From NCBI GenBank assembly GCA_016278485.1, contig JADQBT010000008.1, positions 62,001-126,000 on the forward strand: 64,000 bases of DNA, in the 5' to 3' direction. The stretch is from Halanaerobiales bacterium (GTDB taxonomy: Bacteria > Bacillota > Halanaerobiia > Halanaerobiales > Halanaerobiaceae). Position numbers and translations under genes: made by a program. The notes under the pieces are model-generated. The model ran no database searches, was not told the DNA's origin, and worked only from the letters and a program-made list of their open reading frames with translations. Below are positions 19,477 through 55,697 of this stretch, one piece after another (within the stretch, counting starts at the first letter, position 1; every line of letters starts with the position of its first letter).

Positions 19477-19745
19477 CCTCATCCAGTCGGGTGAGGTAGA
19501 GGCGCAAAGTTTGAAGAGTAACTTTAGTGATACAGTGGACCTATTGTCTAAAGTGAAAGGCAACTTTGCCGAAGTTTACTCTTAAGGGTTCATTGAGAGT
19601 TTGCTGGGTCTGTATAAAATATATGCAGGACTGTCATTATGAGTCACATCCAGACTCATAATGTTGCGCTATCTCACAAAAGATATGGAAGGGGTGATTT
19701 CTCTGATTATGTATTTTAACTCAGCGATTTCGCTGGGTTTTTTAT
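19477..19745 (+). promoter_or_regulatory. Lysine riboswitch (L box) with terminator platform
   Basis: The conserved core of the lysine aptamer is readable in order: GAGGTAGAGGCGC, AAGAGTA, GTGAAAGGC...GCCGAAG, GCTGGG and ACTGTC. The closing P1 stem pairs GTGAGGTAG (19491-19499) with CTATCTCAC (19669-19677), so the aptamer spans 19491-19677. P4/P5-type hairpins lie between. The expression platform ends in the terminator at 19718-19745, about 80 bp before the binding-protein gene. Known lysine riboswitches turn genes off when lysine is abundant, which predicts lysine-repressed transport here. A hairpin at 19477-19496 pairs CCTCATCC with GGGTGAGG and so competes for the 5' strand of P1. Confidence 0.9.
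19718..19745 (+). terminator. Riboswitch-controlled terminator
   Basis: AACTCAGCG and CGCTGGGTT form a 9-bp stem with a four-base ATTT loop, followed by a T-run. It lies downstream of the aptamer and upstream of the ribosome binding site, the position expected of a transcriptional off-switch. Confidence 0.88.
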
Positions 19746-53852: not shown

Positions 53853-53921
53853 TTATTTTTTATTACAGATTAAAAATCAATTTGTAGCTTAAAATAGTTT
53901 AAATGGGAAGAAGAATATAAA

Positions 53922-53952
53922 AAAGACCTGCAACTTTGATATGCAGGTCTTT
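53922..53952. terminator. Bidirectional intrinsic terminator
   Basis: AAAGACCTGCA and TGCAGGTCTTT form a perfect 11-bp stem with a 9-base loop, between the convergent chemoreceptor and folD genes. Confidence 0.9.
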
Positions 53953-53981
53953 CTATATGTACAATTATTTTTTGTAGTTTA

Positions 53982-54818
53982 CTATGCTTGGACTATATTT
54001 TTAAATGATTCAACTATATTTCGAATTAATACTTTATTAGTTACTGTACCTACCCCGCCTGGTACTGGAGTAATTTGTGAAGCAACTTCTTTTGCCGAAT
54101 CATAGTCAACATCACCAAGTAGTTTACCATCAACAAAATTAGTACCAACGTCAATTACAATGGTATCTTCGCCAACCATTTCACCTGTGATCATTTCGGG
54201 ACGACCAACGGCAGCAATAATAATATCTGCTTGTTCTAATTCCCATTTCAAATCCCGAGTACGTGAATGACACATGGTAACAGTAGCGTGTTTTTGTTGC
54301 AGAAGAATTGATACAGGTTTACCTACAATATTACTTCTTCCTACTACAACAGCTCGTTGTCCTTTAAGTGGAATATCATAGTAATCAATTATTTCCATAC
54401 AGGCTTTTGCTGTACAGGGAACAAGTGTCTCAAAACCTGCAAATAATTTCCCTAGAGAAGAAGAAGTAATACCTTCAATATCTTTAGCAGGGTTAATCAT
54501 TTCCAGTGTATGCTTTAATGAGTCTGGTAATGGTTGTTGGACCATAATAGAAGTAATTTCTTTACTGTCATTAGCTTCTTTAAGGCAATCAATGAAAGCT
54601 TGTTCATCATCACTAAAAATCATATATTCAAATTTAATTCCTATCTTATCGCAATTTTTTTCAATTCTTCTAACATATGCTTTACTTGCTTCATCATCAC
54701 CATATTGAAGCACACGCAAATAGGGAACCTGACCAGTTTTTTCTTTAAGTGATTTTACATCTTCGATACATAGTTGTTCAATTTTTTCTGCTATGGGTTT
54801 TCCAGATAATTCTTTCAT
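53982..54818 (-). CDS. folD: FolD-type methylene-THF dehydrogenase lacking the cyclohydrolase lysine
   Basis: FolD normally oxidises methylene-THF and hydrolyses methenyl-THF to formyl-THF in the cytoplasm. The fold is complete (278 residues): IMVQQPLP, VVVGRSNIVGKP for NADP binding, and ITPVPGGVGTVT. But the two catalytic positions differ: in SKAYVRRIEK the residue four after Tyr48 is Ile52 where E. coli has Lys54, and the DVDG motif is DIEG, so E. coli Asp121 is Glu115. Gln94 (E. coli Gln98) is kept. Loss of the Lys should abolish cyclohydrolase activity while dehydrogenase may remain. An fchA-type cyclohydrolase gene lies immediately upstream and could supply the missing step. Confidence 0.9.
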   Translation of the reverse strand: MKELSGKPIAEKIEQLCIEDVKSLKEKTGQVPYLRVLQYGDDEASKAYVRRIEKNCDKIGIKFEYMIFSDDEQAFIDCLKEANDSKEITSIMVQQPLPDSLKHTLEMINPAKDIEGITSSSLGKLFAGFETLVPCTAKACMEIIDYYDIPLKGQRAVVVGRSNIVGKPVSILLQQKHATVTMCHSRTRDLKWELEQADIIIAAVGRPEMITGEMVGEDTIVIDVGTNFVDGKLLGDVDYDSAKEVASQITPVPGGVGTVTNKVLIRNIVESFKNIVQA

Positions 54819-54843
54819 TTTTCACACTCCTATTAAATAATTG

Positions 54844-55428
54844 TTAGGCGTTTGCCAGAATATCTTTTTTCAGTTGCTGACTTTTTTTCTGTAATATAGT
54901 ATAAGAATTTTTCACTTCAGTTATATGTTTTTCATCTTTTAAATTACCTAAATTAATTTTTACATTAGCAATAGCACTATTAACCGCTGCATCACCTAAG
55001 TGGGCGGCAACTTCAAAATCACTTGCGAGCATTCGATTACCGATTCGACTGATATGTAAAGCAAGTTCCATAATTTCAACACATTTTTTTGTCATATCCA
55101 TAGAGAAATCAACAGCACTTTTAGAAACAGAAAGTAAAGCTTCTTTATCGCCAGTTTTATAAGTTGCTAAAATTTCATCTAAAACTTCACTATCTTTGTC
55201 AATCATTTCAGCTAGTTCATCCATTAGTTTTGTAGATTCAGCTAGTATTTCCTTGGCTTCACCTTCAACATCCTGATACTTTTTCTTGCCAACAGTCAAA
55301 TTTGCAATAAAGCTGACAACAGAAGCAGTAACAGCACCAGTTAAAGCAGCAGCACTACCTCCACCAGGAATAGAATTTTTAGAGCTAAGTTCTGCCAGGA
55401 AATCATTAATACTTTTTTCCGGATACAT
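54844..55428 (-). CDS. fchA: FchA-type methenyl-THF cyclohydrolase / formiminotransferase-cyclodeaminase family protein
   Basis: A 194-residue, all-helical protein of the FTCD_C family, which includes methenyl-THF cyclohydrolase (FchA) and formimino-THF cyclodeaminase. The signature PGGGSAAALTGA is near the N-terminus, followed by TVGKKKY and the later VAAHLGDAAVNSAIANVKIN, typical of the family. It is the first gene of a two-gene unit with folD, 25 bp upstream of it. Together they would convert methylene-THF to formyl-THF in two proteins. A cyclodeaminase role in histidine breakdown is the alternative; no other hut genes are nearby, so the cyclohydrolase is favoured. Confidence 0.85.
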   Translation of the reverse strand: MYPEKSINDFLAELSSKNSIPGGGSAAALTGAVTASVVSFIANLTVGKKKYQDVEGEAKEILAESTKLMDELAEMIDKDSEVLDEILATYKTGDKEALLSVSKSAVDFSMDMTKKCVEIMELALHISRIGNRMLASDFEVAAHLGDAAVNSAIANVKINLGNLKDEKHITEVKNSYTILQKKSQQLKKDILANA

Positions 55429-55532: not shown

Positions 55533-55697
55533 ATGATTATTTCCGTAGGGGGTCCACTTTATGCTGTAAACTCTCCATTTACTAAATTAGTGATAGCAGC
55601 TGCATTTGGTGGTAGTATTCTAATTGGTGGGCTATCTTGGTATGTATCTGATTTAAGTGGTGATATTTTAGTATTAGCAGAAAAAATTTCAGCATAA
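55533..55697 (+). pseudogene. Short hydrophobic reading frame, possible gene remnant
   Basis: Within the 364-bp gap 55429-55792, a 54-codon frame from ATG 55533 encodes one or two hydrophobic stretches (KLVIAAAFGGSILIGGLSW) and ends with a TAA at 55695-55697. No ribosome binding site precedes the ATG, and the frame stays open upstream without another start, so it looks like the 3' end of a decayed membrane-protein gene. The source family is not identified. The rest of the gap holds only AT-rich DNA. Confidence 0.3.

Follow-up and report, generated by a model that had tools for sequence, protein, structure and literature searches.

FTCD_C-family proteins either deaminate formimino-tetrahydrofolate (formimino-THF), the substrate supplied by the formiminotransferase FTCD_N, or hydrolyze methenyl-THF. 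In Clostridium perfringens, as Aluri and co-workers reportedly described in 2016, FolD is a monofunctional dehydrogenase that is accompanied by a separate FchA; i.e., the pathway is divided between a FolD-family dehydrogenase and an FTCD_C-family cyclohydrolase. The FolD of Escherichia coli is bifunctional, and a PF04961 profile search of the E. coli genome, included as a control, returned no match.

In the mutant data of PMC5688156, the K54N substitution in E. coli FolD renders cyclohydrolase activity undetectable and leaves dehydrogenase activity at ~19%, deletion of K54/R55 gives undetectable cyclohydrolase and ~1% dehydrogenase activity, and Q98H reduces cyclohydrolase activity to ~1%. In human MTHFD1 the equivalent residues, Lys56, Gln100, Asp125 and Tyr52, have been called key to the binding of substrate and to catalysis (PMC3368264). 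A computational study of MTHFD2 sees the lysine as acting chiefly in binding during the dehydrogenase step and leaves open what it does in hydrolysis (PMC9173628).

The window (the whole stretch of DNA that was analyzed, 64,000 nucleotides from a Halanaerobiales bacterium) contains a folD and an adjacent fchA-like gene (Table 1). The split arrangement is already known, and this pair is a further case with its own set of substitutions. As is said of C. perfringens, with which it was compared by arrangement rather than by residues, the window genome (G000) combines a FolD that lacks the cyclohydrolase residue with an FTCD_C gene. A literature search combining Halanaerobium, methylenetetrahydrofolate and cyclohydrolase found no paper.

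Residues of FolD and layout of the locus

The window FolD was aligned with MAFFT to the E. coli MG1655 enzyme (from NC_000913). AYVRRIEKNC of the window protein aligned without a gap to IYVASKRKAC, placing Ile52 at the Lys54 site and Tyr48 at that of Tyr50; AKDIEG aligned to DKDVDG, placing Glu115 at Asp121, and MVQQPLP to LVQLPLP, placing Gln94 at Gln98. An earlier note on this DNA had given Ile52 for Lys54, Glu115 for Asp121 and a retained Gln98, all of which the alignment confirmed. Among the residues that mark a bifunctional FolD, Lys54 and Asp121 are therefore absent and Gln98 is present. The window protein has the fold and domains of E. coli FolD and naturally carries an isoleucine where mutation abolishes cyclohydrolase activity in the E. 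coli enzyme, according to the mutant data (PMC5688156); it differs additionally at E. coli positions 121 (Glu instead of Asp) and 265 (Thr instead of Pro). It passes the Pfam cut-offs (PF00763, 87.2 bits; PF02882, 210.3 bits) and falls below the cut-off of the NCBIfam FolD equivalog (best score 264.7 bits vs 438). As landmarks of the dehydrogenase, 31 positions are conserved both in intact FolDs (those keeping Lys54 and Gln98) and in the clade to which the window FolD belongs, including Tyr50, Gln98 and the PVPGG motif.

Table 1. Features of the fchA-folD locus, with positions in the window.
Feature	Position	Strand	Description and basis
folD	53982..54818	minus	278 aa; open reading frame, PF00763 and PF02882, alignment to E. 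coli FolD; predicted dehydrogenase without cyclohydrolase activity
fchA-like gene, FTCD_C family	54844..55428	minus	194 aa; PF04961; predicted methenyl-THF cyclohydrolase
fchA/folD spacer, 25 bp, with GGAG ribosome-binding site before folD	54819..54843	minus	sequence
Intrinsic terminator hairpin 3' of folD, followed by T-rich run	53920..53954	minus	fold -18.2 kcal/mol, z -6.1
Codon ATT, Ile52 (E. coli Lys54 site)	54663..54665	minus	alignment
Gln94 (E. coli Gln98 site), retained	54537..54539	minus	alignment
Glu115 (E. coli Asp121 site)	54474..54476	minus	alignment
Thr258 (E. coli Pro265 site, GGVGPMT)	54045..54047	minus	alignment

The neighbouring gene had been assigned to the FTCD_C/FchA family, and its product indeed matched PF04961 with 165 bits (cut-off 24.5). 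Its best match in the PDB was 7vg4, ‘Methenyltetrahydrofolate cyclohydrolase’ (E 5e-23). In common with the FchA proteins represented by 7vg4/7vg5 and NCBIfam model NF045657, it is an FTCD_C protein that has the PGGG and GKKKY motifs, and the match extends over residues 5-169; it is, however, shorter near the LPKNT stretch and scored 138.3 bits against NF045657, below the cut-off of 275. This score is indecisive because six other FolD-adjacent FTCD_C proteins also miss the cut-off (130-210 bits); two non-adjacent Hut-type FTCD_C proteins scored 152-166 bits. The window protein has the residues that are invariant in FolD-adjacent FTCD_C proteins (PGGG, T45, D79 and S136-D137), and nearly all of these proteins (53 of 55) retain the GKKxY lysines.

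The fchA gene lies upstream of folD on the same strand, and the genes flanking the pair on both sides are on the opposite strand. Judged by its sequence, the pair is a two-gene operon that would be terminated by the hairpin 3' of folD. The hairpin was missed by a consensus terminator scan because its 9-base loop exceeds the limit of that scan (loop <= 8). Control of the pair by a THF riboswitch was rejected, as an Rfam search found no riboswitch at fchA-folD. Elsewhere, THF riboswitches (RF01831) were seen at an fhs-folT-like locus (L221:9530-9629 and L211:6805-6898), and the window contains a lysine riboswitch at 19489-19679 on the plus strand (107.6 bits, Rfam). The gap upstream of fchA (window 55533-55697, plus strand) holds a 54-aa open reading frame of membrane-like composition, perhaps a gene remnant.

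Gene content and conservation in the Halanaerobiales

Profile searches of the window genome assembly (2.86 Mb, 96.4% complete) gave a single match over the cut-off for each of PF00763 and PF02882. Another full-length folD, which the earlier note had named as evidence that would count against its proposal, was thus not found in this assembly, and the presence of a second folD was rejected. PF04961 had two matches in the genome. The second, L003:1249-2010 on contig C29, is a 253-aa open reading frame that combines an MnmA-type C-terminal barrel (PF20258) with an FTCD_C domain (PF04961); it is an unlikely back-up, because the domain is divergent and lacks several conserved FTCD_C positions.

The formate-THF ligase Fhs (PF01268) was apparently missing from the window genome at the first search. 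The end of contig C15 and the start of contig C26 (L221, L222) share 55 identical bases that encode the last Fhs residues, and the gap is probably an assembly artefact in which two near-identical copies were dropped by the assembler. The proposal that FolD and FchA provide the sole route to 10-formyl-THF was therefore rejected. In the genome G022, fhs remnants likewise lie at four contig ends (L212-L215).

The order was sampled with 38 Halanaerobiales genomes, 35 of which had a FolD match. The FolD variant of the window is confined within them to a clade of 14 genomes, consisting of family f1 (the window genome included) and G032. Position 54 is Ile in 13/13 readable members of this clade (G020 being left out for an in-frame stop in its draft) and position 121 is Glu in 14/14, whereas Lys54, Gln98 and Asp121 are all kept in the other 21 FolDs of the order (21/21). 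As the same residues occur in every readable relative of the clade, sequencing error or chance was rejected as the origin of Ile52 and Glu115. FchA is encoded directly upstream of folD in 13 of the 14 clade genomes. The exception is G014, a single-contig genome that has an Ile54 FolD (L033) without an adjacent FchA and whose only FTCD_C gene (L034) is in a histidine-degradation operon; it is a natural case of fchA loss or replacement. In G020, whose draft is fragmented, folD (L038) is interrupted by an in-frame TGA, which is either an error or the mark of a pseudogene.

FolD residues and FTCD_C neighbours across the Bacillota

A wider sample comprised 199 Bacillota genomes, 197 of them with FolD. 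Residues were read in 194 FolDs, which came from 35 genomes of the order and 141 from elsewhere in the phylum (176 in all). The 141 comprise all 51 genomes with the lowest-scoring FolDs beyond the order, together with 90 of the remaining genomes, so that low-scoring FolDs are over-represented. A neighbour was defined as an FTCD_C gene on the same strand within 400 bp of folD. FTCD_C was present in 50/51 genomes in which every FolD lacks Lys54 and in 62/124 that have a Lys54 FolD (one genome was unreadable). When both residues were considered, it was present in 69/70 genomes without an intact FolD vs 42/104 with one (two of the 176 being unreadable), for which Fisher's test gave p 1e-17 with the genomes treated as independent and their kinship ignored.

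In this sample a FolD beside FchA never has both Lys54 and Gln98: 0/53 readable FolDs with an FTCD_C neighbour were intact (two more were unreadable), and none of the 104 intact FolDs had such a neighbour. The 17 Lys54 FolDs that do have one all carry Glu98. Pro265 follows the same division, being present in 101/104 intact FolDs (the other three have Leu) and in 0/53 of those adjacent to FTCD_C; among non-intact FolDs without the neighbour it is present in 10/34.

The sole exception among the 70 genomes was G185, which has three FolDs (L079, L110, L117) with Gln, Ile and Gln at position 54 and Glu121, and in which no FTCD_C was found; some Lys54-less FolDs may therefore manage without FTCD_C. 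Pairs of FolD genes that lie within a single stretch of DNA, one product being Gln54/Glu121 and the other Lys54/Asp121, were seen at L057, L062, L067, L198, L199, L205 and L206, and some genomes with FolD gene pairs (G091, G130, G157) have no FTCD_C. These paralogues possibly represent a division of labour.

For 20 further, held-out FolDs, the intact or damaged state was predicted from gene positions alone before the sequences were fetched, and the prediction was right for 19/20, in a set that is not evolutionarily independent because its genomes are relatives of those sampled before. All eight held-out FolDs with an FTCD_C neighbour lacked Lys54 or Gln98, and Pro265 was missing in 6/6 readable ones; 11 of the 12 without the neighbour were intact. 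The miss, in G132, was a Lys54/Glu98/Ser265 FolD with FTCD_C elsewhere in the genome.

The phylogeny called for by the earlier note, of FolDs with and without Lys54 against adjacent fchA, was also built. Three FolD-adjacent clades in the FTCD_C tree match three FolD substitution patterns: Ile54/Gln98/Glu121 with fchA upstream (the window clade); Ala, Ile or Val54 with Phe, Met or Leu98 and fchA upstream; and Lys54/Glu98, plus some Leu54, with fchA downstream. Because of this match, the folD/fchA pairs look as if they were inherited together. The intact or damaged state requires no more than four changes on the best tree, and an independent-pairs test yielded 1-2 pairs, too few for any power; the association between FolD and FTCD_C thus rests on few events. 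We consider it somewhat probable that, as a rule in the Bacillota, an FchA-adjacent FolD never keeps the cyclohydrolase site, that at least three patterns exist, each with an FchA lineage and a gene order particular to it, and that Pro265, lost in all of them, may be a residue with an unrecognized part in determining the cyclohydrolase step, its loss perhaps marking FolDs misnamed bifunctional.

Function and origin of the pair

FchA and FolD very probably do jointly what a bifunctional FolD does alone. FolD would oxidize 5,10-methylene-THF to 5,10-methenyl-THF, or catalyze the reverse; its site for methenyl-THF hydrolysis has no lysine and is predicted to be dead; and the FTCD_C neighbour would hydrolyze 5,10-methenyl-THF to 10-formyl-THF, or catalyze the reverse. 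The loss of cyclohydrolase activity in FolD and the function of FchA are here assigned by analogy with homologues. The proposal that this FolD be annotated as a dehydrogenase only appears right in substance, since Lys54 is missing and the E. coli Lys54 mutants described in PMC5688156 are without cyclohydrolase activity. Counted against a split function are the G014 FolD without adjacent FchA, G185 without FTCD_C, the score of the window FchA below the NF045657 cut-off, and the MTHFD2 study, in whose treatment of the lysine the hydrolysis step stays open (PMC9173628).

The neighbour might instead be a cyclodeaminase that acts on formimino-THF in histidine or purine breakdown and lies beside folD by chance, as it shares its Pfam family with Hut-type FTCD_C genes, which exist in the order (G014, L034). 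The G014 gene, unlike that of the window, is in an operon with hutU-like, FTCD_N and hutI-like genes (the hut names given by eye, FTCD_N by profile), and its product lacks the GKKxY segment and groups with non-adjacent FTCD_C proteins in the tree. The FolD-adjacent proteins of the window clade form a clade of their own, apart from the G014 protein and ten other non-adjacent ones, and the conservation of the pair in 13/14 genomes also argues against chance. FTCD_N (PF07837) was present in 14/38 genomes of the order and, within the 13 genomes of f1, only in G014; none was found in the window genome or in the 11 other f1 genomes with a FolD-adjacent FchA, so no formimino-THF substrate is evident in these 12. 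G032 has both FTCD_N and the adjacent FchA. A role in histidine breakdown was rejected on the missing FTCD_N and cyclodeamination by the neighbour is highly improbable; with FTCD_N missing from 12/13 f1 genomes, the neighbour is best read, by analogy, as the methenyl-THF cyclohydrolase FchA. It is also quite unlikely that some other residue leaves the Ile54 FolD with sufficient cyclohydrolase activity, FchA being an accessory that raises flux. Gln98 and the lysine two residues on are kept (the latter present in E. coli too), and G014 and G185 could be accommodated in this way; however, neither K54N nor the deletion of K54/R55, by which the next lysine comes near the site, had detectable activity in the E. 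coli mutant data (PMC5688156), and FTCD_C is present in all but one of the 70 genomes that have no intact FolD.

How the clade came by its FolD is a separate matter. A foreign FolD that was already dehydrogenase-only may have arrived with fchA and replaced the bifunctional enzyme, with no loss in place; this is a real possibility, held a little short of even, and is compatible with a split function. The FolD tree, which has 193 rows, unites the window clade with SH-aLRT 100 and places it at the end of a long stem (1.08), outside the clade formed by the Lys54 FolDs of the order (SH-aLRT 100), and Glu121 is common to FolD paralogues of other families. However, in an AU test (49 rows) a grouping of the window clade with the FolDs of the order was unrejected (p 0.525), as was one with other Glu121 FolDs (p 0.53). 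The claim of the earlier note that the bifunctional enzyme has been split is therefore supported for the division of function, by the fixation in the clade, the missing FTCD_N, the E. coli Lys54 mutants, the absence of intact FolDs beside FTCD_C and the held-out prediction; the support does not extend to the order of events, as neither placement is rejected.

Beyond the known arrangement, the present analysis contributes a substitution pattern particular to the clade, the exclusion of a role in histidine breakdown, the rule within the sample that no intact FolD lies beside FchA, and the Pro265 mark, a correlation that offers a concrete residue for testing the cyclohydrolase step. The default annotation of FolD is that of a bifunctional enzyme, as in 25/25 of the NCBIfam models listed for the window FolD. 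In E. coli FolD carolacton is anchored by Lys54 and the K54N variant is insensitive, as described for that inhibitor in PMC5688156; bacteria that naturally lack Lys54 in FolD should therefore be insensitive to inhibitors that bind the enzyme at this residue. In family f1, and in many Bacillota as judged from the residues at the same positions, FolD probably acts as a dehydrogenase alone and fchA would also be needed; a dehydrogenase-only FolD changes metabolic models and predictions of gene essentiality.
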